Program-made: the position numbers and the translations under genes
The notes under the pieces: model-generated
What the model was told of the DNA's origin: nothing
Databases searched by the model: none
The model's input: only the letters and a program-made list of their open reading frames with translations
Virus record (IMG/VR): IMGVR_UViG_3300042923_000601
Location: 124,001 to 188,000 of that record
DNA from: a virus
Length of the DNA stretch: 64,000 bases
Strand: one strand, 5' to 3'
In this document: positions 292-49,130 of the stretch, in pieces
Layout of the letters: every line of letters begins with the position of its first letter
Position numbering within the stretch: position 1 is the stretch's first letter

Positions 292-369
292 GCATGAGAG
301 TCTATTCGACAAAACAACATGATAAGTACATGTATCAAAATCATACTTACACGAAGGGGGATAAGCCCG

Positions 370-9300: not shown

Positions 9301-12300
9301 TGGGTTGCTGCCAATAAAGCACCGGGCTGGACTGGTTGGGCGACGCTTGATTATGTGATGACATCAGCACCAGCACCTGTACCGATTCGACTCTCTGAAG
9401 GCAGCATCTCTCTACATGGTGGCGTAAACCAGATTATGGTTGAAACCGGGGTCATCCAACGGGAAAAAGCTAAGCCGATCTATGACAACGGATTTTGGAA
9501 CATCAACGCCCAAGTCGGAAGTAACAACGATTCAAAACTTGCATACCGCACTAAACGGACACTAGCTATCTATAAAGACGCTAACATCGATCCAAGCTGG
9601 ATTGTTGGAACACGTCCAAGTACAAGCACACTGATTCCACTATTCGGCAATGATGGGGTTCAGGCTCCGACTGCCATGTATGATCCAACTGCTACTTATT
9701 ACGTCACATATCTGGTATTAGATCAGTATGCTGTGACTCCTAGTCTTACGAATATCAGTGCATCGTGGAAAACCGGTCTTAACGGTGTAGTAACATCCCT
9801 TGCACACGATGTCGCCATGCTTCAGGCAGACAACGATCGTCAGGACTTTGCTGACAAGTATCTGAATGACAAAGTGGCAGTGTTGCAAAACCTCTACCCT
9901 ACCACACTTACAGGAGATTTTGCCATCAATGCAAACGGTAAAGACCTTCTGCAAATGGTTGTAGCTGCTGGTAATGGATTTAAGACGCTTTGCGCCAATT
10001 CAACATCCACTAACATACCTTCTGGGGTAACATTCCGAGGGCATTCTTTTGGATCAGTTGGGTCTGACGGGGAGTGGACTGGCTTTGTACAGCTGTACAG
10101 TCAGCTTAACACTAACTTCAGTAACTTCCGGTACGGTGCTTCCGGTTGGGGTGGTTGGCAGAAAAACATCAATGAAAATATGGCATCCGGTGAAACTCGC
10201 GTCAATGCTATCAGCCTCGGCGGGTATAATGTTGAGAAGACGAAGTCGTATGCGATCCCAAATACCTTAACTAACGCAAAAATGGATATTACTTGGGAAC
10301 CAGTTCTTAGTTCCGGCACGGTGGAAATCACAGTCACATGTGGATTTAACACTGTGAACGCGAACGGGGTTATCCGAAAGGTGATCAGCTACGGCTCAAA
10401 CGCATCAGGTGGAATCAATCCGTATAACTCCTATTACAAAGAGGTACTTGGACCAATCAAGAACTACCTTGGTGTATCGGAGCTGGTATACGACTCAACT
10501 ACCGCAAATTTAAAAATTACGGTAGAGACACTAGCCAATGGGTACGTGTTTGGTGGTACTGTAACGGTGAAGTTTCTTTCATCTATGGGACGCGCTGTTC
10601 CAAATATCACAATCGGTGATCCGTACTCTGGTGCTTCCCTCGGGTCAGTTGTCCCTGTACAGGTAATACCGGATGATACAGTAACTACCTCCGGATACCA
10701 GATTCAGAAGCATCCGCTGACGAACAATATCGGTCAAAATATTCTACTGACGGCCAACACCGACCTCAACACCGTTGTTACAGCAGGTTTCTACAGCGGA
10801 AATGGATTAACAAATGCTCCAACCAATGAAGTAACATGGTGGTATGTTCAGGTATATGTACACAGCGGGTCTGTCGGGTATGTATTACAGAGAGCCTATC
10901 ATTTGAGTGCAACTGGAACGCCGACCGAGTATATTCGCCGCAGGGTCAATAATACTTGGACAACATGGGTTTACGTACCAAATAGCAGTATGCTTAATGT
11001 GGCAAACGGTATTCTACAACTGGACAGCAGCGGACTCGCACCACTGGCACAACTCCCAGCTATTCAGAAATGGCTGCTTACTAGCAATACTGGTTCTGGT
11101 AAGGATGGTGTTGCAACGTACGACCTCAACACACTCATTACCACAGGGTACTATTCCATAAATACCAACAGCACGAATATGCCGATATCAGGATCATCCA
11201 CCATGCTTCTTGTGATGTACTTCGGATCGACATACTACCAGCAAGAAGCTACAGTCTATGCAACAGGGCCAGTGGTTCGTAAGTTCGTTCGCGAAACACG
11301 AAACTCTGGTACTACTTGGACCGCATGGGCGGAAATCGAAACAACTGCTAAAAAGGATGTCGCGAACGGTTATGCAGGGTTAAATGCCAGCGGGGTTTTA
11401 CTACCTTCTGTCATGCCAGCCACTGTGACCAAACGGGTCAACCTGTATGGACAGCTTCAGATTACGTCATATCGTAGATCGGTTGTTGCGCTTTGCGAAG
11501 TGACAAACACTGAACCTGGGGCTACTTCCTATACCAATGGCGTACTCACCTTCAAGCGTGTTAATGGGCTTGCTGGACAGACTACCATTATGGTAAGTGC
11601 TGAAAAACGATGGAGTAGTACAGCGATGAATATCTCAGTCCTTAAGATGGGATTGACTGGTGCTGCCATTCGCCCATGTACGTTTACGTATAATGGTGTG
11701 AAATACGGTGGACTTGAAATCTATATCGAGGCTGCTGAATCGCAACTGGTTGAGTTTAATGGTGCTGGTAACTTCACACCGTTTGGTGTGGATTACTATA
11801 CCGTAAACACATCCACTGTCGTTAATGCCGAGATAAACAACTCGCTTGGGCTTGTCGAGGGAACCGACTTCTATTACATCAACGGGATTTTCATGAATGA
11901 TGTCAGTATTTCCCCTACGACAGACTCAATTGCGAACAGACCAGTGCTACGCGACAGTAACAAAAAGATCGCAGAAGTTGCATCTACTCGTAGCAACGGG
12001 GTCAACATTGCCCTTACTGCCACGAATACGTTGACAACAGCTGTCTCTTACACCACGTCAGGTGTCGTAGCGAACTATGTTGTGTATGTCACAATATGGC
12101 CAAGCGTAGCGACCACATTAACAATCCAACTGACGTACACTTCACCAATGGGAGGCTCACAAACTACGGTGATCTTAAACGCCAAACAGCTTGCAGCCGG
12201 GGCTGAGTCTAGCCTAATCCCACTGTACGTTACAGCAAATGCATTCTCAACTATGAACCTCCAGTATCTGAGCACGACGACGAACTCGACGAATCCTCTG

Positions 12301-12390: not shown

Positions 12391-13845
12391 ATGGGTCAAC
12401 TAATCGTGTCAGGCGACGCAACCGCAGCTGACGTCCTTATAGGGCATACTTTTAGTGCTGGGCCGTTAAACGGTGTAGCCGGTACAATGCCTGATAACGG
12501 AGCCGGAGGAACGGTAACTCCTTCTGCATCCACACAAACAAAGGCCGCAGGATATTATTCAAGCGCTATTACAATATCGGCTGTAACGTTCACCGCAGCA
12601 AATGTATTAACAGGAACAACAATCGCGGGTACGGCAGGTACGATGCCAAACCGTGGAGCAGTAACAATCACCCCGTCTTCCGCTGCTCAAACTATCGCCG
12701 CCGGATACCATAATGGGTCAGGTACAGTTGCCGCAGTTACCGTGCCTGCCGCTAACGTATTGACAGGAACAACAATTGCAGGTGTGGCAGGGACCATGGT
12801 GAATAATGGTGCAGGTGGAACCGTAACTCCTTCTGCATCTACACAAACCAAACCAGCCGGATATTATTCAAGTGCTATTACAATTTCGGCAGTATCGGTT
12901 CCTGCAGCCAACGTTTTAACAGGTACTACAATTGCAGGAACCGCAGGTACGATGCCTAACCGTGGAGCAGTAACAATCACCCCGTCTGCCTCCGCTCAAA
13001 CCATTGCTGCTGGGTACCATAATGGCTCAGGTAGTGTTGCTGCTGTAACATTTCCGACAGAGTATGTTCTAAATGGTGTTGTTATTGCAGGCACTGAAGG
13101 AACGATGGCGAGTTATGGTGACCAAGAGATGATAACCGCTGGTGGGACAATGGGCGAAGGTTATGTCACGCTATCCAGTTACGCAGAGGGGTATGTTAAT
13201 AGTGGAACCACATACTCTTTGCAGTCGGGCGTTATTTCAGCCTCTAAGATTCTAGCCGGGCAGAATATTCTCGGTTTAGGGGGAACTGCGACATCTGATG
13301 CGACTGCTGTGGCCGCTGACGTCTTATCTGGTAAGACAGTATATATTAACGGGGCAAAAATTATTGGGACGATGCCTAACATTACGTCTGGATCAGACCC
13401 AGCACAAGGCGTTGGTCTATGGGGGGATGGCGGCTTAGCAGTGTATCCATCACCAGGATATCGTAAGGGTGGTGCGGGTGCTGGTGAAATTAAAGTATCT
13501 GTGGCTCAGCTCCAAACAGTCGCAAGTATACAGCCGGGGAACATCCGTAGTGGGGTTACTTTATTTGGAGTGGTGGGTAATGTGGTACCACGCGTGTATT
13601 CATACTATTCCTTCAGTATGGACGCGGGCTCTAACGTAGTCGGATATAACGCGGGGTTTACACCAAGGGCGATTGCAGTTAGAGGTACAGTTGGACAAAC
13701 TGTAGTTGCCGCATCCTGGTTTTCGGACGGCAATGTGTATGGGTCATTTGCCCAATACATTGCCATTTCCACAGCTGGAAATAACATCACTTTTACTAGA
13801 CAAACCTCCGGGACTATCAATTTTGATGTATCGATATTTGGCTAA
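12391..13845 (+). CDS. Gly/Ala/Thr-rich repeat tail protein (484 aa)
   Basis: A strong AGGAGG sits 10 bases before the ATG. About the first 230 residues are built from ~51-residue repeats around NVLTGTTIAGTAGTM followed by TPSASxQTxxAGYxxxS; two repeat types alternate (GYYSS and GYHNGSG). Further looser repeats of the V(L/I)xGxxIxGxxG type follow, and the last ~75 residues look like a compact beta-sandwich. This repeat is common in tail fibre or fibre-associated proteins of Firmicute phages and prophages. It lies between the giant fibre and the endolysin, so it is probably a tail appendage or fibre tip protein. The exact role is inferred. Confidence 0.65.
   Translation: MGQLIVSGDATAADVLIGHTFSAGPLNGVAGTMPDNGAGGTVTPSASTQTKAAGYYSSAITISAVTFTAANVLTGTTIAGTAGTMPNRGAVTITPSSAAQTIAAGYHNGSGTVAAVTVPAANVLTGTTIAGVAGTMVNNGAGGTVTPSASTQTKPAGYYSSAITISAVSVPAANVLTGTTIAGTAGTMPNRGAVTITPSASAQTIAAGYHNGSGSVAAVTFPTEYVLNGVVIAGTEGTMASYGDQEMITAGGTMGEGYVTLSSYAEGYVNSGTTYSLQSGVISASKILAGQNILGLGGTATSDATAVAADVLSGKTVYINGAKIIGTMPNITSGSDPAQGVGLWGDGGLAVYPSPGYRKGGAGAGEIKVSVAQLQTVASIQPGNIRSGVTLFGVVGNVVPRVYSYYSFSMDAGSNVVGYNAGFTPRAIAVRGTVGQTVVAASWFSDGNVYGSFAQYIAISTAGNNITFTRQTSGTINFDVSIFG
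12499..13080 (+). repeat. Tandem ~309-bp dimeric repeat within the repeat-rich tail gene
   Basis: Near-identical coding blocks start at about 12499 (GGAGCCGGAGGAACGGTAAC) and 12808 (GGTGCAGGTGGAACCGTAAC), each containing one GYYSS-type and one GYHNGSG-type sub-repeat of about 51 codons. The high identity between copies suggests recent duplication or gene conversion. Confidence 0.75.
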
Positions 13846-13915
13846 AAACGCAACACTAGACCTGGTATTATCAAACAATCTAATAACCCAAGTAAAAAAG
13901 GAGTGGATAAATCAT

Positions 13916-14860
13916 ATGCAAACCAAAGGCAATTTCCTGCTGATGGAACTGTCTGAGTTTCAGGCGTGGTTGGAGAAGCAAGTAATCACCCGTGCTGTTT
14001 CTAAAGTTCAGTTCCATCACACCGCAAGTCCTAACTACACAACACGTAAGATGGTTAATGGTGTAGCGACCCAGGATCACTTTAAGTGTCTGGAAGGCAT
14101 GCGCGACTACCATATCATCACCAACGGATGGTCTGCAACCGGTCAAAACATCACCATCTTCGAAGACGGTAAAGTGGCAATCAGTCTTGACCGCGATTTG
14201 AACAAAACTCCTGCTGGTATCACTGGCCAGAACACCGGTCAAATCTGTATCGAAAACATCGGTAACTTCGACAAGGGTGGCGACACGATGACAGCTAAGC
14301 AACGCGAAGCTATCATCCATGTGTATGCTTGCTTGGCTAAGAAGTTTAACCTGCCGATCGATACTGACCATTTTGTATACCATGCATGGTTTACAGCTAG
14401 TGGCACAAGACTCGCTGACTATACCCCTGGTAAGTCCTCGAAGTCCTGCCCGGGCACCAACTTCTTCGGCGCAGGAAACACGGTTGCATCTGCTAAAACG
14501 GTCGTGTTCCCGCTGATTCAAGCTGAACTCAACAGATTGAACGCGCCTGTTACTCCGCCGCAGCCGGTTCCATCAACAGATATCCCGCAGGAAATCACAG
14601 TGTATTACAACACCGTGAAGGATACCGGGGTACTGTACAATAACAAAACGTATGTCAAGCTTACCAAGCTGGCTGAAGTACTTGGATTTGAAGCCGGTTA
14701 TGATAACGCCACGAAGAAAGCAACAATCAACGGTAAGGAACTGCAAGATACCCTTGTAGTTGACGGTCGTGCATTTATTCAGGCACGTCCAATCGTTGAT
14801 GCCTTCGGCGGTGAACTGAGCTGGAATAATGATACCAAGGTGCTCAAGGTCACTAAGTAA
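13916..14860 (+). CDS. Endolysin: N-acetylmuramoyl-L-alanine amidase with copper-amine-oxidase-N-like C-terminal domain (314 aa)
   Basis: The ATG at 13916 follows AAAAAAGGAGTGG; a longer frame start at 13706 would overlap the upstream gene. Residues ~25-200 form an Amidase_2 (PGRP-like) domain: FHHTASP at residues 33-39 supplies the first zinc histidine, and YHAWF plus KSCPGTNFFG supply the later His and Cys ligands. It would cleave the amide bond between MurNAc and L-Ala. A proline-rich linker (PVTPPQPVPSTD) leads to ~85 C-terminal residues (VYYNTVKDTGVLYNNKTYVK, LAEVLGF, DGRAFIQARP) resembling the copper amine oxidase N-terminal-like domain, frequent in Paenibacillaceae extracellular proteins and here a likely cell-wall-binding part. 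It sits with a holin-like gene downstream, so a lysis role is the best call. Confidence 0.88.
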   Translation: MQTKGNFLLMELSEFQAWLEKQVITRAVSKVQFHHTASPNYTTRKMVNGVATQDHFKCLEGMRDYHIITNGWSATGQNITIFEDGKVAISLDRDLNKTPAGITGQNTGQICIENIGNFDKGGDTMTAKQREAIIHVYACLAKKFNLPIDTDHFVYHAWFTASGTRLADYTPGKSSKSCPGTNFFGAGNTVASAKTVVFPLIQAELNRLNAPVTPPQPVPSTDIPQEITVYYNTVKDTGVLYNNKTYVKLTKLAEVLGFEAGYDNATKKATINGKELQDTLVVDGRAFIQARPIVDAFGGELSWNNDTKVLKVTK

Positions 14861-16466: not shown

Positions 16467-16499
16467 GGAGAGACAGCTAAATGCTGTCTCTCCTTTCTT
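16467..16499 (+). terminator. Terminator ending the rightward tail/lysis block
   Basis: Perfect 11-bp stem GGAGAGACAGC / GCTGTCTCTCC with a TAAAT loop, then TTTCTT. It lies at the convergence with the leftward unit that starts at 16605. Confidence 0.88.
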
Positions 16500-16688: not shown

Positions 16689-16910
16689 TTACGGCTTGAA
16701 CGGCGGTGTGATTTGAACACCAAGATCATGCGCCATCGTAAAAAGTTGGCGTGTTTCTGCCGTAAGATGCATCATTGCAATGGCAGCAAGCGAGACCTCG
16801 ATCTCATCCATTGACTGCACAATGATATCAGAATGGTGTTCGATCTGCTGGCTCAGATTGTTGACACGAGCCTGAATGTGCATTCGAGTTAGCTCTAATG
16901 CTTTATCCAT
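16689..16910 (-). CDS. Small helical protein (73 aa), downstream of PPK1
   Basis: AAGGGGAG precedes the ATG at 16910, 18 bases after the polyphosphate kinase stop, so the two are likely co-transcribed. The sequence is almost wholly helical with heptad-like hydrophobics (MHIQARVNNLSQQIEHHSDI) and suits a small coiled coil or four-helix partner. It has no transmembrane segment or cysteines and no recognised family. Placement suggests an accessory to PPK1, but this is only inference. Confidence 0.6.
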   Translation of the reverse strand: MDKALELTRMHIQARVNNLSQQIEHHSDIIVQSMDEIEVSLAAIAMMHLTAETRQLFTMAHDLGVQITPPFKP

Positions 16911-16928: not shown

Positions 16929-19900
16929 TTATCTAATGAAATACTTGTGAGCATCCAGGGATGACGGTGCATCAGGTGCCGCACCATCTTCACCCCGAAC
17001 AAGGTTTAATTCACGGTAAGGAACATACCCTACAGCATAACTGATGAAACTATTCTCCGTATCATCCAGCAATACCTGAAGGTTTCCTTGTACCCGCAGT
17101 TTAAGGTTTGGATCAGATACCATGAACATCAACTCCAACCGGCGATCCAGATTACGGGTCATCAGGTCGGAAGAACTGAGGAATACATCATCCCCGAATT
17201 GGAATACCCGGCTGTGCTCAAGGAACCGGCCAACAATCGATTTTACTTTGATATTTTCGCTGTACCCTGGAATACCTGCAATCAGAGAGCAAGCTGACCG
17301 GCAAATGATATCGATATTAACACCGGCATTAGATGCTTGATACAGTTTTTCCGCCATACCAGGGTCAGACAGATTGTTCACCTTAATGATAATTCGGCCA
17401 TCAGACCCAAGCGCGATCTGCTGGTCAATCAAGGTGTATAAGGTTGACCGGATTGCAATTGGTGCAATCTTGATATTGTTAAGCTGACTATCTTCGGAGA
17501 TGAATCCGCCAGTCAGCATGTTAAAGATACTATTGATATCCGAGCAGACTTTCTTATCCGAAGTGAAGTAGCTGTAATCGGTATACACCTTGGAGTTCTT
17601 TTCACTGTAGTTACCAGTGCCGATATGACAGAACTGTTCACCTGTCTTTCCTTTGAGGCGGAATACATGAGTCATCTTGGCATGAGTCTTAATATGCTCA
17701 TAACCATAGACAACGGTTGCACCTGCCCGCTGGAGTTTATCTGCCCATTCAATATTGGTTCCTTCATCATACCGAGCTTTAAGTTCCATTACCACGGTCA
17801 CGTTCTTTCCAGCCTCAGCCGCTTTGATCAGGTGACGGATGATCTTAGAATCATTACCCGACCGGTACAGCGTCTGTTTGATGGAAATGACATGAGGGTC
17901 TTCGCATGCATCGCGGATGAATCGTACGACGCTATCAGTGAAGCTTTCATACGGATGATGTACCAGCACATCCCGTTTCGCAATCCGAGCCAGCATCGTT
18001 TTCTTATTATGCTCTTCATACAGTGGACGCGGCTTGAAGTGAGGGTACTTAAGTGCAGGGTCATCAGATGCTTTATACAGCTGAATGACATCCGACATTT
18101 TGATCCGTTCTTGAACGTGGAATACATACCGGCTTGGGATATCCAAGGACGACTGAAGTGCTGATTTGATTTTCTTATTCGCACCAGCCAAGATATCCAG
18201 TCGAACCGGATCGTTGTACAGCATACGGCTTTGGACATTCATAACCATTGTTTCCACATAACCTTTATCCTCATCCACAACCACAGTGTCACCATCGCGG
18301 ATCACACGGAAAATCGTGATATCAGAGCAGGTTGAACCCGGATAGAGATCAGTGATGTTAGCAAGGATGATGTCTTCGATGAAGTACCAACCGTGTTTAC
18401 CGATCTTAACAATCCGATCCAAGTGGGTTGGGATTTCGATCAGCCCCATACGTTCAGTACCGTCTGCTGTCTCTACAAAGAGTGCAATGTAGATAGAGAG
18501 TGGTTTAAGGTGCGGGATTGGACGAGTCACATCCAGAGCCAGTGGTGCAAGTGCAGGCTTGATAGTGTAATTGAAGTACTTCTTGACCTTGTTACGTTCA
18601 AAATCGGTCAGGATGTGAATGTCAGACTCAGCCAGCTTGTCAATTAAATGCCGATATGTGGAATCCATTCGTTCCACCATGGACTTGCATTCGCTGATAA
18701 TGTTATTAACGACCTGACGGTCTTCGACTTCATCTTCTTCCTCATCATCCAGTTCTTCATCGTCTTTGAGTCTGGATGCTACACGAACAGCGAAGAATTC
18801 ATCCAGATTAGAGTTCGCGATAGATAAGAACTTCACTCGTTCCAGGAGAGGTGTAGTGTCCTTATCTGCAAGGGACAATACCCGATTGTTGAAGCTTATC
18901 CAGGAAAGCTCCCGGTCAATGTAGGGCATTTCAGCCGTATTAATTCCAGTTGTCATTGTAGTACCTCCGTTTACTTTGTTGATTATATCATCAGTGTTAG
19001 CCATTAAATCAGGATGCTGGAAATCAAGGATCATGGCTTCAATATCAGCCAAACTTCTTTCTATACCATGCACATTCTTCAGTTTCTTCTGTATCTTTTC
19101 AGCAACCGTTGGTGTAGATTCTAACTTAAATCGGCCGAAGTGTGCAGGTGGCGTAGGATCAAGAATTTGAGTCATCCGTAGAATGATCTCCTTAATGTCA
19201 TGTAACTCCATTGATATATTACATATCGATTTCAGATCACGCTGAATCTCAACTGGTGTCTTGTATATGGGCCCAGCCTCATACTCTGCCTGAGACCGAA
19301 AAGTGTGCTCTTCGTTATCTTGCAGTATTGTTATGATCGCATCAAACTGCTGGGGTATACCTATTGGCAGGGTTTGTGCCGTTCTTAGAACAGACATCGC
19401 ATGCTTTACCGGTATATTAGGTTTGTTGAATAACATAGGCGCAATTCGAATATCTTCTTTATTGACAATAATTCTGTCATTAATCTTCGCACCTAGCTTA
19501 TCTTTGTCGAAGTTCAACCTTACAGGTTCGGCGTTAATCGTCTTAACTAGCCGGTCGTATTGCTGGATAGTGGATGTGATCAGTTTAATACCCACGTCCA
19601 CACCATAATCAGACTTCAGTATGCCATCAATCTCGTCTGGCGTCAGGTGCACAGCATCTTCTCCACGCTCAGCCCATTGTATATAAGCCTGAGAATTTTG
19701 AAGTAATGCTATGATAGCCTTGAATATTTTTGAAATACTGAGTGATGACCACGGTATCGAGGTCAACGTATGCCTAGCTTCATCCGCCGTCAGCTGATTA
19801 TCAAAGAAGGCAGGTGCAATTCTAATGCCTTCGTCATCAATAATGATTCTTTTAAAGCGAACCTTCGGCGCATCCGCGCTATGGCTTCCGCCACGTCCAG

Positions 19901-20051
19901 GTTCATTGTCAGTTCTGGTTTCACTCCCTTCATCGTCAAGCTGTGTATTTTCATTGTTGTTACTGGTCTCAACGTCAGAAAGCATTTCGCCAGAACGAGT
20001 TCCCCCGTCATTCATTCCATTTCCACTCGCACTGCCGTTCGTTTCGTTCAT
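16929..20051 (-). CDS. ppk1: Polyphosphate kinase (PPK1 family) with ~365-residue N-terminal extension (1040 aa)
   Basis: PPK1 transfers the gamma phosphate of ATP reversibly onto polyphosphate. From residue ~376 the protein matches the family throughout: ELSWISFNNRVL (381-392, ATP-binding N domain), ARYDEGTNIEWA, KTHAKM with the autophosphorylated-type His790, CHIGTGNYSEKN with His809, and EHSRVF with His946. Spacings (19 and 156) match His435/454/592 of E. coli Ppk (19 and 157), so it should be active. Residues 1-62 are acidic and low complexity; 68-176 and 192-300 are two copies of an unrecognised domain (RIIIDDEGIRIAP and RIIVNKEDIRIAP), with a partial third to ~360. The start has GGAGG 10 bases upstream. 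An internal ribosome binding site would start a normal 675-residue PPK1 at Met366. A consensus phage promoter lies at 20087. A phage-borne PPK1 is unusual; it may reshape host phosphate, stress or nucleotide pools. Confidence 0.92.
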   Translation of the reverse strand: MNETNGSASGNGMNDGGTRSGEMLSDVETSNNNENTQLDDEGSETRTDNEPGRGGSHSADAPKVRFKRIIIDDEGIRIAPAFFDNQLTADEARHTLTSIPWSSLSISKIFKAIIALLQNSQAYIQWAERGEDAVHLTPDEIDGILKSDYGVDVGIKLITSTIQQYDRLVKTINAEPVRLNFDKDKLGAKINDRIIVNKEDIRIAPMLFNKPNIPVKHAMSVLRTAQTLPIGIPQQFDAIITILQDNEEHTFRSQAEYEAGPIYKTPVEIQRDLKSICNISMELHDIKEIILRMTQILDPTPPAHFGRFKLESTPTVAEKIQKKLKNVHGIERSLADIEAMILDFQHPDLMANTDDIINKVNGGTTMTTGINTAEMPYIDRELSWISFNNRVLSLADKDTTPLLERVKFLSIANSNLDEFFAVRVASRLKDDEELDDEEEDEVEDRQVVNNIISECKSMVERMDSTYRHLIDKLAESDIHILTDFERNKVKKYFNYTIKPALAPLALDVTRPIPHLKPLSIYIALFVETADGTERMGLIEIPTHLDRIVKIGKHGWYFIEDIILANITDLYPGSTCSDITIFRVIRDGDTVVVDEDKGYVETMVMNVQSRMLYNDPVRLDILAGANKKIKSALQSSLDIPSRYVFHVQERIKMSDVIQLYKASDDPALKYPHFKPRPLYEEHNKKTMLARIAKRDVLVHHPYESFTDSVVRFIRDACEDPHVISIKQTLYRSGNDSKIIRHLIKAAEAGKNVTVVMELKARYDEGTNIEWADKLQRAGATVVYGYEHIKTHAKMTHVFRLKGKTGEQFCHIGTGNYSEKNSKVYTDYSYFTSDKKVCSDINSIFNMLTGGFISEDSQLNNIKIAPIAIRSTLYTLIDQQIALGSDGRIIIKVNNLSDPGMAEKLYQASNAGVNIDIICRSACSLIAGIPGYSENIKVKSIVGRFLEHSRVFQFGDDVFLSSSDLMTRNLDRRLELMFMVSDPNLKLRVQGNLQVLLDDTENSFISYAVGYVPYRELNLVRGEDGAAPDAPSSLDAHKYFIR
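18954..18968 (-). promoter_or_regulatory. Internal ribosome binding site within ppk1 (GGAGGT, 6 bases before ATG for Met366)
   Basis: Leftward sequence GGAGGTACTACAATG lies exactly at the junction between the extra N-terminal region and the PPK1 core. A full Shine-Dalgarno at ideal spacing and in frame suggests either two isoforms (1040 and 675 aa) or a relic of two formerly separate genes that fused. Confidence 0.6.
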
Positions 20052-20086
20052 AACTTAAATTCCTCCAGTATAGTTAGGATGTGATA

Positions 20087-20103
20087 CACTTGTATAATAT
20101 ATA
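20087..20103 (-). promoter_or_regulatory. Phage promoter motif upstream of ppk1
   Basis: Leftward TATATATTATACAAGTG, an exact match to the consensus TATATATTATA-N3-GTG, 36 bases before the ppk1 start. Confidence 0.7.
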
Positions 20104-20561: not shown

Positions 20562-20594
20562 CGGACATGGAGATTCCTCCATGTCCGGTTTTTA
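20562..20594. terminator. Strong terminator between convergent genes
   Basis: Perfect 11-bp stem CGGACATGGAG / CTCCATGTCCG followed by GTTTTTATTT on the plus strand. On the leftward side it overlaps the 3' end of the 420-aa gene. Confidence 0.85.
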
Positions 20595-21854
20595 TTTGTC
20601 GTAATCCTTGCCCTTACTATTGAGGTCTCGCTCGTTGATCAATTTCTGAATCTCCATGATATAAGGCATGTTCAGATACACACATACCGTATATACACTT
20701 TGAGGCTTAGCCTGCTTCATGGTCAGTTCATACGTATCACCCTTGAACTCATAGACATCAGGGTTCTCAGGAACAAGTTCTTCCCATTCATAGATAACGA
20801 TCTGGGAATACGGTTCCGTAAGACCATTGTCATTAATGTACTTGATTGCATCACGGACATCAACCCCTATAAAATCCATCAGTCCAAGGGTTTCCTTAGG
20901 CTTATCATACTCAACCTTAACTGAGGTGTACAGGCTGTATCCGTTACGTACAGTCTCAATCACAGGAGCTTTGGACTCAAGATAAATACGAACCGTGTAA
21001 GAGTTCAGCATATCCGTTGGGTTACCCGGGAGGATATCCTTAGTCACCAAGAGGAAATTCTCCATTACGTTAACCTCTACCCGGATTTGGAATTCCAATT
21101 GGGTAAGATGGTCAATACGCTGAGACCGAGTTCGATCCAGTGTAGGTAGGTCAGGGAGATGAAGTTGCAAGGTACTCTTTGCTAATACAAAGAACTCCGT
21201 CTTTCCTGTAGCCGGTCGGTGCAGTCGAACAATAGTTGCAGTTGACATTCGGTTTAGCTCGGCCAGGAATTCAGGGGTAGACTGATCCATCCCTAATCGC
21301 TCTGCCAAATAATCAATGAATGCCTTTGGGATCAGCGTTTCGGTATACCGCTCAATACCAAACATGTGCCGGAACCGAAGGTTTGCACGAAGGTATTTAA
21401 GCAGGTTAGTACCGAGCATATTGGTTTCAGTCAGCATAACAATACGAAATGCAAAGCTTTCTCTGGCGATAGTATAGCCCAGCGCATAGTCAGGTGGATC
21501 ACCATCCGTCAGGAAGAACTCCGCATTCATGTGATTGAACACAGGGTCGTTCATATGGTCAATCGGAATAAATTTATCCCATTGTATCTTAGGGAGAGCC
21601 GAGGATTCATCATCCGGTAGATACTTAGGGTCGATAATCAAGGTCGGTGTTTCACGCTGGATCATGTTTTTATTCTGACCCCGGATATTCTTAAAGGCAA
21701 CCTCAGTTGTAACATACGTTTCTTTAAAGAAACTAGGAGACGGCATCGCATCCTTGATGTAGTGCTCAATGATTGCAGTCAAATTGCCTAGTATGTGAGA
21801 GAATGAGGTGGTCGCTTTATACATCTTACTCTGCCATTCATGCTTTTCGCCCAC
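20592..21854 (-). CDS. Unknown, probable virion protein (420 aa)
   Basis: The start is GTG at 21854 with AAGGAAAGG about 12 bases upstream. The protein has no transmembrane segment, no cysteine cluster and no recognised enzyme motif. It alternates helical and beta stretches with aromatic-rich patches (FRHMFGIERYTETL, YEWEELVPENPD), in the style of jumbo-phage head or tail components. It follows the beta' N-terminal gene after a strong terminator and must depend on read-through or an unrecognised (perhaps late) promoter. A virion role is inferred from proximity to the 753-aa and 275-aa structural-like genes in the same leftward block. Confidence 0.5.
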   Translation of the reverse strand: MGEKHEWQSKMYKATTSFSHILGNLTAIIEHYIKDAMPSPSFFKETYVTTEVAFKNIRGQNKNMIQRETPTLIIDPKYLPDDESSALPKIQWDKFIPIDHMNDPVFNHMNAEFFLTDGDPPDYALGYTIARESFAFRIVMLTETNMLGTNLLKYLRANLRFRHMFGIERYTETLIPKAFIDYLAERLGMDQSTPEFLAELNRMSTATIVRLHRPATGKTEFFVLAKSTLQLHLPDLPTLDRTRSQRIDHLTQLEFQIRVEVNVMENFLLVTKDILPGNPTDMLNSYTVRIYLESKAPVIETVRNGYSLYTSVKVEYDKPKETLGLMDFIGVDVRDAIKYINDNGLTEPYSQIVIYEWEELVPENPDVYEFKGDTYELTMKQAKPQSVYTVCVYLNMPYIMEIQKLINERDLNSKGKDYDK

Positions 21855-21937: not shown

Positions 21938-23455
21938 TTACGAAGCATTTTCACCCAGAGCGTAGAGTTCAGACAGGATCAAGATGTAGTCCTTAATGAA
22001 CTTCATGCGCTCAGAATAGTTACCATGCGTACGAGACACATAGTTGTATTTCGGGCTGAGGGTTGGTTCGAAGGTCTTGATCAATCTCCAGTCCTTCATT
22101 GGGAAGTAGTACAAGCTGTCCCCGTCATGGTCTCCCGCATATCCGTCAAGCAGAGATGGTGAGATACGCATACACAGGTCGTCAATGTCATTACCAACAG
22201 CCACGACTTGCAGTAGACGAATGGAACGGTCAGATAGAGTAGGTGGACGACCAACCATTACACAAATCGGCGTCTTGGACTCTTTCAAGATCGTCATCAT
22301 CAGTGCATAGATACGTGGATTGTAAATCCGCAGGCTATCGTTGATGATCTTGTAAGCTTCATTCTCCGTAATATCATCCAAGATACACAAGAGGTGAATC
22401 AACTCAAGTTCAAGGAATACGATACCTGTAATGTACGGGATTTGAACATCGCATGGTCTAAGATGTACACCTGGGATGATGATGCTTCGGGCCGCGTAGT
22501 CAATACGAACGCCACCGAAGTTCGATCGGAACATCCCTTCTTTACCGGAATACGTATCAACCAGCCATGCATACAGGTCATTCAGTTTCTGCTGAATACC
22601 ATGCAGTGCGGGCACGATGGTCAGCTCGTTATCCGGCTCCGTTACGATCAGGTTGTATTGAGACATGATCATACCATAGAGCTTGTTCGGTTTAAAGGCA
22701 CGAACCTTTTCATTATTCTCGATATGCGGGCGAATGATCGCGCTGTATACCGGGATATAGTTAGTAAAGATCGATTCCTTGTCCCTAACCAGGAGCTCGT
22801 AATGATCACGCTTCTTATTGGCTGTATCAAGACCCATATAGAAATCAAGGATTTCGTCAATGTGCTTATACAGATACATCATGCCTACATTATGGTATCG
22901 TTTACGCGGCTCAACATCATCTCTGAGATTCCCATCGACTGACCATCTGGCGGTGCTCATCTTGAGGATGTTCTCAAGTTCGCCTTTACCAAACAAGATG
23001 TTCATATGGGTATACATAGCTGGGTTGATAACCACATACTGCTGCAGGGGAATCCAGCCCATGATGCTAAGGTCAGCATCCATGAATTTAACTGGTGTTC
23101 CGCACACTGGGCAAATCTCATCAATGGAAATTGCACCGCCTGTTTCACCGCACTGACACCGGTAAGCATCTTGCCGTCCGGTTTGGTTGTCGAATTGGGT
23201 GTAACCATAACGAGGTGAGAAGATACCGTCCACGGTTTTATTGCCAGCTTTATCAATGGCTTCAGGGTTTGTCACAAGGAAGTCTTTCCCGGACTTAAGA
23301 CCCTTCTCCGCCTCTTTACGGAGATTTACTTTAATCAACTGCTCAGATTCGATGGACTGATCATAGTCCTCAAAGTAGCGTTTAACCTCGGGTAATTGGA
23401 ATTGCTTGACGTCACCATAGTCGATGACGTCTCCGTTTAACATAACTTCTTGCAT
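21938..23455 (-). CDS. RNA polymerase beta' subunit, N-terminal part (505 aa)
   Basis: The start at 23455 has ATAGGAGGC 10 bases upstream; a longer frame to 23521 would run into the preceding gene. An N-terminal zinc ribbon is present at about residues 98-120 (CQCGETGG and CPVCG). The catalytic loop near residues 437-450 reads DGYAGDHDGDSLYYFP, the divergent phage form of the NADFDGD motif whose three aspartates hold the active-site magnesium. Upstream, FGGVRIDYAARSIIIPG matches the universal beta' region before the catalytic loop (RVDYSGRSVIVVGP in bacteria). This is half of a split beta', as in phiKZ/AR9-group multisubunit polymerases; the rest is the 399-aa gene at 24170-25369. A consensus promoter heads its operon, so at least this subunit may be made early. 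Confidence 0.9.
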   Translation of the reverse strand: MQEVMLNGDVIDYGDVKQFQLPEVKRYFEDYDQSIESEQLIKVNLRKEAEKGLKSGKDFLVTNPEAIDKAGNKTVDGIFSPRYGYTQFDNQTGRQDAYRCQCGETGGAISIDEICPVCGTPVKFMDADLSIMGWIPLQQYVVINPAMYTHMNILFGKGELENILKMSTARWSVDGNLRDDVEPRKRYHNVGMMYLYKHIDEILDFYMGLDTANKKRDHYELLVRDKESIFTNYIPVYSAIIRPHIENNEKVRAFKPNKLYGMIMSQYNLIVTEPDNELTIVPALHGIQQKLNDLYAWLVDTYSGKEGMFRSNFGGVRIDYAARSIIIPGVHLRPCDVQIPYITGIVFLELELIHLLCILDDITENEAYKIINDSLRIYNPRIYALMMTILKESKTPICVMVGRPPTLSDRSIRLLQVVAVGNDIDDLCMRISPSLLDGYAGDHDGDSLYYFPMKDWRLIKTFEPTLSPKYNYVSRTHGNYSERMKFIKDYILILSELYALGENAS

Positions 23456-23469
23456 ATTGTGTCTGCCTC

Positions 23470-24048
23470 CTATTGCTTTTTGTGTATACTGCGTCCTACT
23501 TCTTTGTATAAAAGATCGCAAAATACCTTCATATGAGTTTTGCGGAATTCGACCGGTAAATTTGGCACTCCCACTAATTCATATGGGAATGCATACTTGC
23601 CGATGTGTTTATACGGGATGATTTCGTTAGACATGTGCTTGAGAAATATGGTTCGTCTACCTTCATGAATATCTTTCCGAGTAAGTTCGGTGAATTCAGA
23701 TAAGTATCGCCACTCATGATAGATTTTCTCCGGCGCGTAGGTTGTCATTTCAACCGCCGTGTTAACAAAGATTAAAATCGTTTCGATCAGGATCATTTCC
23801 AGCAACTGACCGAACTTTGCTCTTTCTACAGCGCCGTAATTTGCCTTGATGGCAGCCACGATAGCGTTTGGTGATATCGTAACTTCTCTTACAACGGTTC
23901 TTGCACGGCCGGTAAACTTAAACCGGACCAGTTCACCAGTGGGTATATTCCCAATGATAACGTTCGTTGCTAATTTCAGGCTGTTATCTCCCCTACAGAC
24001 CTGAATCATTTCGTTGAGCCGCCTCTTGACTCTCCGTTTACTGAACAT
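23470..24048 (-). CDS. Unknown protein, first gene of the beta' N-terminal operon (192 aa)
   Basis: GGGAGGG lies 7 bases before the ATG. The N-terminus is strongly basic (SKRRVKRRLNEM), then comes a mixed region with GRARTVVREVTISP and a hydrophobic helix FGQLLEMILIETILIFVNTAV that may be buried rather than membrane-spanning. No family was recognised. It ends 14 bases before the beta' N-terminal start and shares its promoter, so a role in the phage polymerase (for instance a polymerase-associated or promoter-recognition subunit, which AR9-type enzymes need) is worth considering but unproven. Confidence 0.6.
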   Translation of the reverse strand: MFSKRRVKRRLNEMIQVCRGDNSLKLATNVIIGNIPTGELVRFKFTGRARTVVREVTISPNAIVAAIKANYGAVERAKFGQLLEMILIETILIFVNTAVEMTTYAPEKIYHEWRYLSEFTELTRKDIHEGRRTIFLKHMSNEIIPYKHIGKYAFPYELVGVPNLPVEFRKTHMKVFCDLLYKEVGRSIHKKQ

Positions 24049-24169: not shown

Positions 24170-25369
24170 TTATTTACCGATAAGGTCATCCACCGTCACG
24201 CGGTAAGTATAAACCTTTTTGTTATGGAACGCCTTAAGCCGCTTATTCATCATCGTCGATCCAATCTTGGACGACGCTATACCAACGGCTTTAAGTTTAA
24301 GTCTATACGATTGTGAACCCAGACATGCATTACAGATATGCGGTTTAGGCTGGTGGCAGAACATTGGTGATCTAAACTTCATCCGTCTTCCCTCATACTG
24401 CTTGAAGTTTTCAGGGGTCAGTTCCACCAACTTCTTACCATCAATCATATTCATGTACATGAGTTCGTTCTTAAAGAATGGGTCTACAACCATGTGGATG
24501 TACCCATCAGTACCGCAGTCTGAACCCTTTGGTCCAGATGCAACGTCTTGCAGGGTTGCAATAAACTTCTGAGCTGCATAACCACCCATCGCAACCCCTT
24601 TAGCGCGCTGGAATGTACCATATACAGCTGAGTCAGCAAGCAAGTGATACTCTTCTTTGGATATCCCGTCATCGTAGTTTGAGGTAGCGATCTTCCAATC
24701 GCCTGTCCCTGTATCAACGATCGGACCCTTCATGAGCATCATGGTCTTGAAGTTATTATCGAAATTGAGCTTCGCGTCAGAAGCAAAGTTATCCCACTCT
24801 GGGAGTTTCTCCAAATGCTTCTTCGCCATATCAACCAGCTCTTTTTCAATCTTCGCGCCGACGATAACATCACCCTCGGCGATTTCCTTCGCGTATTTCT
24901 TAAAGAGCATTGCGCGGTGTTCCTTGACCTCTTTCGGGATGGTAAAGAGTCTAGGCGAGAGTGATACATTGATCAATTCTGCCAAATCACCACCACCAAG
25001 CCAGTCAAGAGAGTCAATTAACTCAAAGAACTGCGCAGACACAATCTTGTCTTCAAACAGGGCTTGGGAGATTAACGTGTAAATTTTCTTTAGCACGCCG
25101 CCTGTAATCGGGGTGTTTACATAACCAACCACATCCGAGAAATGTTTATCGATAACCAAGCGGTTAAAGATGTACAATCCGATTGTGGTCAGACCCTTTA
25201 TATTTTTGCAGCATGCATTCTCCGGTAAGAAGAACCAATCTGTTGTGGTGAACCTTGGTGTTGGGTTATTGCGTGTCCGGCCAAAGTAACTCTTCAGCAG
25301 CGTGGTTGTGATGTCGTCTTGTGTTAACTTAATGACTTCCTGTATTTCTTCGGGAGTCAGTGATCTCAT
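24170..25369 (-). CDS. RNA polymerase beta' subunit, C-terminal part (399 aa)
   Basis: The start at 25369 follows AAAGGGAGG. Residues ~255-285 carry AKGVAMGGYAAQKFIATLQD and SDCGTDG, the phage counterpart of the beta' trigger-loop/bridge-helix region and the EDCGT motif. Residues ~330-350 read GRRMKFRSPMFC then CNACLG, matching the second zinc-binding module (CRSxxxC...GxCxxCYG in bacteria). The end, SSKIGSTMMNKRLKAFH, corresponds to the conserved C-terminal region of the largest subunit. With the 505-aa gene it completes a split beta'. It is separated from that gene by a terminator, a promoter and the 192-aa gene, and lies downstream of two virion-like genes with only short gaps, so it may also be made late. 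Confidence 0.85.
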   Translation of the reverse strand: MRSLTPEEIQEVIKLTQDDITTTLLKSYFGRTRNNPTPRFTTTDWFFLPENACCKNIKGLTTIGLYIFNRLVIDKHFSDVVGYVNTPITGGVLKKIYTLISQALFEDKIVSAQFFELIDSLDWLGGGDLAELINVSLSPRLFTIPKEVKEHRAMLFKKYAKEIAEGDVIVGAKIEKELVDMAKKHLEKLPEWDNFASDAKLNFDNNFKTMMLMKGPIVDTGTGDWKIATSNYDDGISKEEYHLLADSAVYGTFQRAKGVAMGGYAAQKFIATLQDVASGPKGSDCGTDGYIHMVVDPFFKNELMYMNMIDGKKLVELTPENFKQYEGRRMKFRSPMFCHQPKPHICNACLGSQSYRLKLKAVGIASSKIGSTMMNKRLKAFHNKKVYTYRVTVDDLIGK

Positions 25370-44846: not shown

Positions 44847-47800
44847 TTATAGTTCCTCTCCATATATTTCCTGATACATCTTAGCAGTATTTTTCTTGGC
44901 CCCAATCAAGATACCGTTAATCATAGAGGTCTTGATCAAGCTAAGAACCATACGTGCTCCGACCGAAATAACCCCGATATACGCATCAATCTTGTCGTTA
45001 GGATCGCTAAGCAAATAGGGTTCTTCGCCTTCCTTGAACACGTCACAGGCGATTGCTTTGGTTGCAACGAATGAAGTCAGCTTATCACCAACGCCGAAAA
45101 CGTCTCTATACTTAGTGTAGATTTCAATCAGGAGACCTTCACCTACACGAGTACCTTTGACCTTTCCTGTGGCATCAGGCGTAACTTGCTCGACTTCAGT
45201 GAGGGTTACATCCAGCATTTTAGCATCAATACCCGTTTCCTTAGATACCCGGCGGAGTACTTTCGCATTTTCTGCTTCGTAGTAGTCGATGACCTTACGG
45301 GCAGATTCAGATAGTTCTTCCTTTGGAACGGTGTAATAAATCTTGATATCCTCGATTACGCCGTTGTGTTTGGATACAACTGGTGTCTTAGACGCTTCCT
45401 TGATATCTCCGCTGAACTCATCTGACATTTTAGCCAGCATTTTATTCGTCAGTTCATCATCATGGGACGTATCGAATATGATCAGAGGGTCGTTAACCTT
45501 GATTTCCTGACCCTTCTTAACGATATAGTCGATATTCGAGTTCCGACCAAGTGTGAGCGGTCTCTTTACAACGATATCCGAACTCATCTTACCAGCTAGT
45601 GGCGTGGATACGATAGTTGAATCCTCGAATACCTTGGAGGAGTACCGGATAGCAATACGGGCAAGTGGTCCTGTCATAGTGACAGGGTTACCTGTACGTT
45701 TGTCAATTGTGAAGAAGTCCTTATTGCAAGCAACAATGGCTCCTTCTTTAAAGGATGCACCAGCCTCAAGTATAGGGGAGAGTTTATTGGAGATGAAGAA
45801 TCCACTACCAGCATTCTTACCCATATCTGGACTGAGGTTAACCGTGTCAATTGTACCGTCCCCATACTTCAAAATCATGGTATGCGAGACGTCATCAATT
45901 TTCAGGATTGTACCGTCTTTTTTAGCTTTGAATACGAAGGTATCCCCGATGATATGCGGGAGGACCTTTTCATATCCCGTTCCAAGTGGAGCACGTTCAC
46001 TACCAACGCAAGCCAAGGTATGACGGCTTTGCGCTGAGGTCATTGCTGTACGTTCAGGGTCATCAGATGACACACCAAACGGGATCAATGATTCGGCAGC
46101 ACTAATCATCTTAGCCGTAGACAGTTGGTTGATCTCGTCTTTATTCTGAGCTACTTTGATGTAACCGCGAGCCGATGTGATATTTGCGTCCAGTGTCAAG
46201 GTACGTGCGATACCAATCGAACCCGAGATCGGGGACGCCTGACTGAGTACGCCGACCATACTCGGATGGTATGAACGTTTCGACAGGTTAAAGGCTCGGT
46301 CTTGGTTCATACCGCCGATACCTTTCCAAGTCGTGGAGGATTTAAGTTCGGCTGTGTAGATTGGGTTAAGGTCAGAGTAGTCTTTGGTTAATTGGTTAGA
46401 CAAGATGTCGACCAATACCGCGTCTTTACGAACTGACATCTTAACCGGGTTAGGATTGTTAGCTGTAAACCGGTACGTTTGGTATGCCTTAGCCAGTGCC
46501 TTATATAAGAAGGCGACCACGGCCTCATTCGACCGCGCCCGGTGAACACTCATGTCACCATCATCTGTCATTGAGTTATCTTCAAGCAGCATGTTAGCAT
46601 ACAGGAAAATGTCAATGAAGTTTGTTGGTAGACCATAGTCGCGGAGTACTTCTTCAGTAACGGGGTCAATCAGCAATTGCTGGAAGTTCTCAAACGCATA
46701 CCCGATATTCTTCCGACCAAAGAGGTTCTCGAAGAGTTCAAAGTACACATCCTTACCCAGAAACTCTTGAATCTTGTAAATCTTCGTTGGGATTTCACAG
46801 AAGCCGTTCATAAGAAGAGAGTTTCTCAGTGGATACATTGGGTATACCAACCAAGCATCTTCAAACTCAATGGCTTCTTCTTCGCCAGACTTAAGGTCAA
46901 GCGCCTTTTTACCATCCTCTTTAGCTATGATGCGGTAGTTGATCTCGGCACGCTTCATCATGGAGAGTAACCCATCAAGGAAGGAAAGAAGGAGAGCGAC
47001 AGGAACTTTCTTTTCCATGATTTTTGCCCGGTTATACATATACTTACGACCTGGACGGATATTCGCGAACGGTTTCTCAAACTCTGGGTTGGTTTTCCCG
47101 ATCTCAGAGATCACGAAGTCCATAAGCTGCATGTTGGTACCTTCAACCTTACTGGACTCCGTATCCAGATAGATAATATCCTTACCGTTACGGATCGCGA
47201 TAGGAAGCTTCGTGCTGGTTGCTTCAGGCACAGGCTTCTTCATATCAGCCAGTAACTGGCGGATGAACTTCTGGTTGAAGAAGATTTCGATATTCGGTGT
47301 TTTGATACGGCGATATTTAGTAGCCAGTTCATCATACTCAATGGTGCGGATGTACTCCCGGTTTGCACGAGTGGATTCACCGACTTCGACCTTTACATCT
47401 TTATGCCGGTTCTCACCAATCGACTTCAGGAATACCGCAACCTTAGGAGAGATAGACTGGCCAAACCGCTGAATGAATACCTTTTGATAGGTTGCAATCT
47501 GGACAGTATCCGGCCCGGTTTTCGTGATCGGGAGAGGAATGATCTGATTGGACATGATCTTCTTATTCCCGCCGACCTTGAGGAATCGACCGTTGATAAA
47601 TTTAGGCATGTTAACCACCACAGTGTGGCGACGGCCAGCCTCATCTTCAAACTTGTACGTATGCTCTTCCAGCGAGTTCAGGGAATCACTGATGTCTTTG
47701 ATCTCAGCATCAATGAGATACAGAGGATGATCCTTATACTGGAACGAGCTAACGATCTTAGCGATGTCGGCACGATACAGCTTTTTCAGGTAGGCTTCAT

Positions 47801-49130
47801 CAAAGTTCGGGAATGTCATTTCTTTGAGAGCCGGGTTAACGGTATCAATAGGGAATGTAACCGGTTCGATCGTATTAGCTTCTGCACGAGCCAACACCTC
47901 ACCCAGTGTCATATCGCCCATCTTAACGTCTTTCATCTCTTGAACCAGCTTAACCTCACGGGCAAGACGTGCTCTGGACTTTGGAACGATGTTTTGCATC
48001 TCTGCTTGAATTCTTTCCAGTTCCATCTCCTTGGTCTCTACAACATCAGCCACTTCTTCAGGTGGTAGTTCAGCCTTAGAGACGTCAACATCAGCTTTAC
48101 CGATCGCGTTATCGACGATCTTACTAACGGCATCGTCCGTTGGCGTAACACCTGATGCGGTTAAATCTTCAACAACTTTATCTGCAATAGCCGTTTTGTT
48201 TATAGCGACTGTTGCATCAGCATTTTGCGCCGCTGGTTCCTGTGAGGTAGTGGCGGCATCTACCTTAGGTTCAATCTTGCGGAACTTCGTCATCAGCGTT
48301 ACGAACTCGTCCGCAGACTTTTCATTAACGGTATCCGGTTCCCACAGAAGAATCTGGTTGCCCGACATGAAGTAGAATTTCCATCCGGCGAAGTTGGTGC
48401 TGAAATAAGCATGGTCATTCGCCAGTTTATTGTAGAACAAGGAAATCCAGTTTGACGTATTCTGGAGACGATAGAGTGTACGATCACGTGGGTCGCTGAT
48501 CCAGTCATCCAGTTGGATAAGCATATGTCGATTTGGGTAATTAGCTGATACAACCTTGTCCGCAGTAAATTCTTTGAAGAGGCGGAAGTACTCATTGACG
48601 CGATTCATCGCAAGACGAGTATCCTTTTCACCAAAGAATCTTTCATTATAAGGACCGATTTCGTAGATATAGTTTTTCCGGTTGAGTGCACTCTGATTGA
48701 GGACTAACGTAAAATGTGGAAGCGTAGGCTGAACCTGCCCTTTGAAAATAGTCTGGGCTTCCATGTCGGATAACCGGTATTTGACAAGTGAATTATATAT
48801 TCTATAATTGTATACACGATCCAGTACATATGCACTGGTGTAGCGCATGAGGATATTTGGCCGGTTAAAGAACTCGACCGTTGACTGGATACTCTTTGTG
48901 ACTGCCACGTATACAGACCCATGATTAATATCCTTAGGATCAGTAGGGAGGCGAAACTGCGATGGACTTCTGTACACCTTGTTTGGAACGAGCTGTTCCA
49001 AGCCCAGCCCTGCTTCAAGTAGTATTTGGGCATTTTCTGTTAACAAATCATCGTCCACTGAATCAGGTGGGGATGGCATTTGGTACGTGCCTGCTTGAAT
49101 AGCACGAAGTTGGTCTTGTAGATTATTCAT
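44847..49130 (-). CDS. RNA polymerase beta subunit, single chain (1427 aa)
   Basis: AAAGGAG precedes the ATG. About the first 290 residues are a phage-type N-terminal domain, followed by an Ala/Asp-rich linker (~295-370). Recognisable beta regions are GRFLKVGGNKKIMSNQIIP (~515-530, the region of INGxERVIVSQ), AMTSAQSRHTLACVGSERAP then LGTGYE (~1035-1052, region of MQRQAVPL...PLVGTGxE) and FGVGDKLTSFVATKAI (~1345, the GDK motif contacting NTP/RNA). AR9/phiKZ enzymes usually have beta split in two genes; here it is one chain while beta' is split at 21938 and 24170. Whether it is the virion-packaged or the infection-produced enzyme cannot be decided from sequence alone. It starts 162 bases from a divergent gene and lacks an obvious consensus promoter. 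Confidence 0.92.
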   Translation of the reverse strand: MNNLQDQLRAIQAGTYQMPSPPDSVDDDLLTENAQILLEAGLGLEQLVPNKVYRSPSQFRLPTDPKDINHGSVYVAVTKSIQSTVEFFNRPNILMRYTSAYVLDRVYNYRIYNSLVKYRLSDMEAQTIFKGQVQPTLPHFTLVLNQSALNRKNYIYEIGPYNERFFGEKDTRLAMNRVNEYFRLFKEFTADKVVSANYPNRHMLIQLDDWISDPRDRTLYRLQNTSNWISLFYNKLANDHAYFSTNFAGWKFYFMSGNQILLWEPDTVNEKSADEFVTLMTKFRKIEPKVDAATTSQEPAAQNADATVAINKTAIADKVVEDLTASGVTPTDDAVSKIVDNAIGKADVDVSKAELPPEEVADVVETKEMELERIQAEMQNIVPKSRARLAREVKLVQEMKDVKMGDMTLGEVLARAEANTIEPVTFPIDTVNPALKEMTFPNFDEAYLKKLYRADIAKIVSSFQYKDHPLYLIDAEIKDISDSLNSLEEHTYKFEDEAGRRHTVVVNMPKFINGRFLKVGGNKKIMSNQIIPLPITKTGPDTVQIATYQKVFIQRFGQSISPKVAVFLKSIGENRHKDVKVEVGESTRANREYIRTIEYDELATKYRRIKTPNIEIFFNQKFIRQLLADMKKPVPEATSTKLPIAIRNGKDIIYLDTESSKVEGTNMQLMDFVISEIGKTNPEFEKPFANIRPGRKYMYNRAKIMEKKVPVALLLSFLDGLLSMMKRAEINYRIIAKEDGKKALDLKSGEEEAIEFEDAWLVYPMYPLRNSLLMNGFCEIPTKIYKIQEFLGKDVYFELFENLFGRKNIGYAFENFQQLLIDPVTEEVLRDYGLPTNFIDIFLYANMLLEDNSMTDDGDMSVHRARSNEAVVAFLYKALAKAYQTYRFTANNPNPVKMSVRKDAVLVDILSNQLTKDYSDLNPIYTAELKSSTTWKGIGGMNQDRAFNLSKRSYHPSMVGVLSQASPISGSIGIARTLTLDANITSARGYIKVAQNKDEINQLSTAKMISAAESLIPFGVSSDDPERTAMTSAQSRHTLACVGSERAPLGTGYEKVLPHIIGDTFVFKAKKDGTILKIDDVSHTMILKYGDGTIDTVNLSPDMGKNAGSGFFISNKLSPILEAGASFKEGAIVACNKDFFTIDKRTGNPVTMTGPLARIAIRYSSKVFEDSTIVSTPLAGKMSSDIVVKRPLTLGRNSNIDYIVKKGQEIKVNDPLIIFDTSHDDELTNKMLAKMSDEFSGDIKEASKTPVVSKHNGVIEDIKIYYTVPKEELSESARKVIDYYEAENAKVLRRVSKETGIDAKMLDVTLTEVEQVTPDATGKVKGTRVGEGLLIEIYTKYRDVFGVGDKLTSFVATKAIACDVFKEGEEPYLLSDPNDKIDAYIGVISVGARMVLSLIKTSMINGILIGAKKNTAKMYQEIYGEEL

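Follow-up and report, generated by a model that had tools for sequence, protein, structure and literature searches.

The locus described here raises the question of whether a jumbo phage encodes a polyphosphate kinase of its own and, if so, what the enzyme would do in the infected cell. It lies in a stretch of 64,000 nucleotides (hereafter the window), part of a 246,689-bp IMG/VR record of a jumbo phage of the AR9/PBS1 type, which has multisubunit RNA polymerases (RNAPs). Polyphosphate acts on stress responses, proteolysis and phosphate storage, and a sequence-only reading of the window had proposed that one of its genes (16929..20051, minus strand) encodes a complete polyphosphate kinase of the PPK1 type.

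Catalytic Core and Predicted Fold of the Phage PPK1

In its full-length reading, the gene is a 1040-aa ORF with an ATG start, preceded by a GGAGG Shine-Dalgarno sequence for Met1 (20062..20066, minus strand). The core proposed to be complete proved to be so: residues 377-1005 (17037..18923, minus strand) matched positions 2-648 of the 673 in TIGR03705 (poly_P_kin) with 676 bits (5e-203), the curated cut-off being 465.85 bits; the Pfam domains for the N, middle, C1 and C2 parts (PF13089, PF02503, PF17941 and PF13090) were all matched; and residues 374-1004 aligned to E. coli Ppk (1XDO) with 8e-95. In that alignment, H790, H809 and H946 correspond to E. coli H435, H454 and H592. All three catalytic histidines are present as claimed, and of their spacing, which had been said to equal that of E. 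coli, the first interval is identical (19 residues) and the second is one residue off (137 vs. 138). The equivalents of H435 and H592, together with the K-H-K, TGN and ARxDE motifs, are invariant across 19 phage PPK1s, and the H454 equivalent is Q in two sequences of that alignment (L037 and L038).

An AF2 model of the core, built on 19 phage PPK1s, reached a pLDDT of 86, with 1XDO as the best PDB match (TM 0.86/0.81, E 2e-53). The predicted fold, consisting of an N domain, a head and two PLD-like C domains, is that of E. coli Ppk. The two enzymes also have in common the four-domain core, the three histidines and the ARxDE, K-H-K, TGN and LEH motifs, at ~30% identity; unlike E. coli Ppk, the window PPK1 has a 365-aa N-terminal extension, an internal start and a phage early promoter. 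By every available sequence and predicted-fold test, the product of this ORF is classified as a phage-encoded PPK1. When predicted viral proteins were searched by structure (BFVD), PLD-like proteins were the best matches, and the matches listed included a single protein named PPK, a C-domain of ~200 residues, and no full-length PPK1. Moreover, PF03976 (PPK2) had no match across the whole record of the window phage, and neither PPK2 nor exopolyphosphatase (Ppx) families were found in 25 records searched, PPK1 thus being the only one of the three enzymes carried. A search with Rfam gave no match within the window or close relatives.

Genomic Context and Promoter

The sequence-only reading had placed the gene among structural and polymerase genes of a jumbo phage, and both flanks agree with this. 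On one side lies gp420 (phrog_21946; 20592..21854, minus strand), a conserved gene of cluster c1 (14 loci) with homologues in AR9, BpSp and a Staphylococcus phage. It is followed by the N-terminal part of the phage RNAP beta' subunit (21938..23521, minus strand; phrog_2987), a homologue, according to the AR9 annotation, of g270 of the AR9 non-virion RNAP; by the C-terminal part of beta' (24170..25369, minus strand; phrog_2962); and, farther away, by the 1427-aa beta subunit (44847..49130, minus strand; phrog_3148, 9e-160). The best named matches of the window RNAP are from the Bacillus phages Goe21, BpSp, AR9 and PBS1, and also from phiR1-37. On the other flank are an endolysin of the Amidase_2 family and a protein of 4003 aa with matches to tail families. 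In addition, the GC content of the PPK1 gene (0.445) equals that of the phage genome (0.446), and GC3 likewise matches.

Two giant ORFs were observed in the window, at 319-12330 (4003 aa) and at 50303-60685 (3460 aa), and the former, which bears the tail-family match, is internally repetitive. The endolysin (13706-14860) contains a Cu_amine_oxidN1 domain (Pfam), and the amidase endolysin of another contig (L016, 5128-6189) shows SLH-like repeats by eye; these domains hint at Gram-positive hosts.

The phage-type promoter ascribed to the gene was also recovered. The motif TATATATTAT-N6-G (20087..20103, minus strand; predicted transcription start 20087) sits ~43 nt 5' of the PPK1 start codon, and it is the same as the early promoter of the AR9 virion RNAP, mapped experimentally as AAATATATATTAT-(6N)-G (PMC5312081). 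In its 17-nt form, the motif has 23 exact copies in the 246.7-kb record, where 0.2 would be expected, and 18 of these lie at most 150 nt upstream of an ORF. Among 23 distinct phage loci, moreover, 14 have its 10-mer in the 160 nt that precede PPK1, where 0.31 would be expected. Given this AR9-type early promoter, the window PPK1 is probably an early gene. A two-sided terminator-like hairpin (20562..20587) separates the RNAP/gp420 unit from PPK1, and an intrinsic terminator-like hairpin (16467..16493, minus strand) marks the end of the PPK1 transcription unit. Between the latter and PPK1 lies a 73-aa ORF (16689..16910, minus strand), which starts after an 18-nt gap, has an SD-like GGGGAGAAA, and is probably co-transcribed with PPK1.

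PPK1 in Other Viral Contigs

The search of phage genomes and metagenomes that had been suggested with the sequence-only reading revealed PPK1 in ~37 IMG/VR contigs beyond the window. These relatives came from IMG/VR through two scans based on alignments and a follow-up based on the RNAP; when viral contigs were scanned with the full window protein as a single sequence, no relatives appeared. The RNAP beta' gene was also present in 26 of the 32 PPK1 contigs from the first scan, the six contigs lacking it being 11-79 kb long, and the same phage RNAP gene was carried by 26 of the 27 first-scan contigs of at least 50 kb. Among RNAP-bearing contigs of at least 150 kb, PPK1 was found in 16 of 26, with the window counted. 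Furthermore, 14 loci have gp420 upstream of PPK1, at a distance of a few ORFs at most, and in most of these the beta' gene is upstream of gp420. The phages closest to the window PPK1 are L008, L009, L010 and L032, with identities of 56-61% for the three that were aligned and 54% for the best segment of L032, and the nearest of several hundred bacterial PPK1s reached about 39-41%.

Several irregular copies were noted along the way. The apparent frame breaks of the L032 gene, which arise from a near-repeat of ~200 bp and from a frameshift further on, are most simply taken as assembly errors. In L009, the complete gene is preceded by an extra partial PPK1 (6763-7041, ~92 aa), 80% identical to that of L010. 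Neither case served as evidence. A PPK1-like protein that the phage PPK1 model matches only piecewise, possibly a degenerate or highly diverged PPK1, is encoded at ~39-41 kb and 44-46 kb in the AR9-like phages G255 and G260 (records of L202 and L210). The beta' gene is in several pieces in L015, L022, L024, L025, L036, G020 and G025, as expected for introns or homing-endonuclease insertions; the AR9 annotation of g270 has an HNH gene inside it.

Some candidates were discarded. Most of the "phage" PPK1 matches in the phage collection were found to be, or possibly to be, bacterial chromosome, in a check that covered the Acinetobacter phage MD-2021a contigs and MT835512 and MT835510 (both "Bacteriophage sp."); these were dropped as phage evidence. 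CAKLQH020000010, CAKLQF020000010, MT835512 and MT835510, although labelled as phage, are plainly bacterial, with pqq and norVW, smc and ftsY, or SusC/SusD-like genes. Likewise, L014 (41 kb, without AR9-type RNAP) groups with bacterial PPK1s and may be bacterial.

Relation to Known Phages and Enzymes

Phage PPK1 as such is already known, so that the earlier statement that no well-characterised phage enzyme was known has to be revised. The Vibrio jumbo phages vB_VcorM_GR7B and GR11A (MT366760 and MT366761), isolated phages of ~200 kb, have an annotated PPK1 of ordinary length, with 33-35% identity to the window PPK1; unlike the window phage, they lack an AR9-type RNAP. Virus-encoded polyphosphate kinases are also said to be the subject of work by Li et al., published in Water Research in 2025. 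Viral ppk1 and ppk2 from reservoir sediments have been described as auxiliary metabolic genes (PMC13188868), and the available part of that report presents contigs encoding polyphosphate kinases, without evidence on lineage, promoter, synteny or co-inheritance.

The cultured relatives compared, on the other hand, carry the polymerase and not the enzyme. AR9/PBS1-like phages (Takahashivirus), MarsHill, LPJP1 and phiR1-37 have a split multisubunit RNAP, as does the window phage; the gp420 homologue is shared with Bacillus and Staphylococcus phages; and PPK1 is absent from each of the AR9/PBS1-like phages, BpSp, MarsHill, LPJP1 and phiR1-37. This absence from all cultured relatives compared would explain why PPK1 has gone unnoticed. 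Polyphosphate is unmentioned in two jumbo-phage surveys, and we found no description in the literature of a PPK1 that is old, is inherited together with the RNAP, and occupies a conserved RNAP locus under an early-type promoter.

Evolutionary History of the Phage PPK1

A PPK1 tree had been proposed as a means of seeing whether phage copies form a clade. In an unrooted tree of 71 PPK1 sequences, a single branch (67 bootstrap/92 SH-aLRT) sets 24 jumbo-phage copies apart from the rest, which lends moderate support to their monophyly, and the clade of five that includes the window PPK1 received 100/100. The copies of GR7B and GR11A nest instead with gammaproteobacterial and Bacteroidota PPK1s (100/99), a grouping that identifies them as an independent acquisition.

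We then compared the enzyme with the polymerase. For 18 phages, the distances of PPK1 and of RNAP were strongly correlated (Mantel r 0.96, p 0.0002); their trees, which differ at local nodes only, are nearly congruent. Moreover, judging from dN/dS values of 0.13-0.15 in the closest pairs, phage PPK1 is under purifying selection. The occurrence of PPK1 beside a viral RNAP gene in many uncultured giant phages makes it look like an old gene of this phage group, rather than a stray bacterial one taken up in an isolated capture.

In the RNAP tree, AR9, BpSp, MarsHill, LPJP1 and phiR1-37, which all lack PPK1, share a branch that is itself nested within PPK1-positive ones, and this suggests ancestral presence and loss; a second, uncultured branch likewise lacks the gene. 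Another jumbo phage with AR9-like RNAP, G028 (L017-L020, L035), has a bacterial-like PPK1 among terminase-like and structural genes, an apparent replacement of the lineage copy. The simplest reading of these trees would be an ancestral PPK1 that was lost at least twice and was replaced once, in G028, by a copy of bacterial type; as the trees are unrooted, several early gains of PPK1 are an alternative. In addition, the lack of PPK1 in 10 of 26 large RNAP-bearing contigs and in the cultured relatives compared indicates that the gene is dispensable in some settings.

Proposed Role and Alternative Explanations

Based on these results, we consider it probable that the window phage encodes a catalytically competent PPK1, heritable in the AR9/PBS1-like lineage and transcribed early, which makes polyphosphate in the infected cell. 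According to this proposal, the virion-packaged RNA polymerase would transcribe the gene at the start of infection from the gene's own early promoter. The enzyme would autophosphorylate on H790 (E. coli H435), the active site also containing H946 (H592) and H809 (H454), and would polymerise the gamma-phosphate of ATP into polyphosphate. The phage may benefit from an early remodelling of host physiology and from a phosphate/energy buffer for copying its ~250-kb genome. In E. coli, polyphosphate and Hfq silence prophages and other mobile DNA (PMC10954037). A polyphosphate synthase with an early-type promoter that was probably kept through deep divergence implies that polyphosphate is important in infection.

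The main rival to this proposal concerns the direction of the reaction. PPK1 might work mainly in reverse, drawing on polyphosphate granules of the host and regenerating ATP or GTP for replication; its reversibility is established enzymology, so that the direction taken in vivo is not settled by sequence, and, with no exopolyphosphatase or PPK2 in these phages, it would be their only polyphosphate-using tool. Nevertheless, PPK1-type enzymes are the synthesis-biased class, utilisation being the bias of PPK2. Furthermore, of 200 genomes sampled across the phylum of Halobacillus, which may not be that of the host, no more than 31 gave a match to PPK1, so that a host store made by PPK1 is not assured and a host lacking PPK1 is plausible. 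We regard reverse use as rather unlikely, and the direction that we favour is net synthesis of polyphosphate from ATP as infection begins. It is improbable, moreover, that polyphosphate synthesis has been lost and the core repurposed, e.g., as a structural protein or as a PLD-like enzyme acting on nucleic acids. The fold is common to PPK1 and PLD enzymes, and no other phage in the comparison has this large N-terminal extension, but the active-site histidines and motifs are kept, related phages show a low dN/dS, and the majority of phage copies are as long as an ordinary PPK1.

The origin of the gene bears on two further explanations. PPK1 is a bacterial enzyme, and both the Vibrio phages and G028 (the L017/L035 type) provide precedents for the recent capture of a bacterial auxiliary metabolic gene without a lineage-wide role; here, such a capture has only a very slim chance of being correct, as identity is markedly lower to the best sampled bacterium than among related phages, the RNAP and PPK1 trees are congruent, locus and promoter are conserved, and GC and GC3 equal those of the genome. 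As to host contamination, which had been named as a finding that would overturn the sequence-only reading, mis-assemblies joining host DNA to a phage contig are common in metagenomic viral sets, and several "phage" PPK1 matches in the phage collection did turn out to be bacterial chromosome. In the present record, RNAP subunits and tail and lysis genes flank PPK1, its base composition matches, and the same gene order recurs across independent contigs, a recurrence that already refutes mis-assembly and leaves it next to no probability.

The N-Terminal Extension and a Putative Internal Start

Finally, we examined the N-terminal extension (365 aa; 18957..20051, minus strand). Its first ~60 residues are of low complexity, and they are followed by a unit of ~105 aa present twice, the halves being 29% identical (E 2e-9). 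Relatives of the extension were found neither in viral contigs nor in the window's own record or the fetched loci, and its single-sequence AF2 model had a pLDDT of 35, too low to be informative. At the end of the extension, an in-frame GGAGG-N7-ATG (18954..18968, minus strand) offers an internal start at Met366, which is 11 codons ahead of the PPK1 domain and corresponds to the usual beginning of a PPK1. In the ORFs of the 246.7-kb record, just two sites of this kind, this one included, are found more than 60 codons in, vs. ~10 expected from codon shuffling, i.e., they are rarer than chance. By eye, no AR9-type late promoter was recognised ahead of the internal start. The L008 PPK1 has a different extension, of 118 aa and without an internal GGAGG-ATG site, and most other phage copies are of ordinary PPK1 length.

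Either the extension was recently fused onto a complete gene, or two proteins are made. A more elaborate proposal, which we put forward as unlikely, is that PPK1 is an ancestral early takeover enzyme of jumbo phages with multisubunit RNAPs, made here both as a 675-aa enzyme starting at Met366 and as a 1040-aa form with a novel N-terminal domain that would direct polyphosphate synthesis to a particular site. If this were true, synthesis would be localised, e.g., in a polyphosphate-scaffolded condensate on host or phage DNA.
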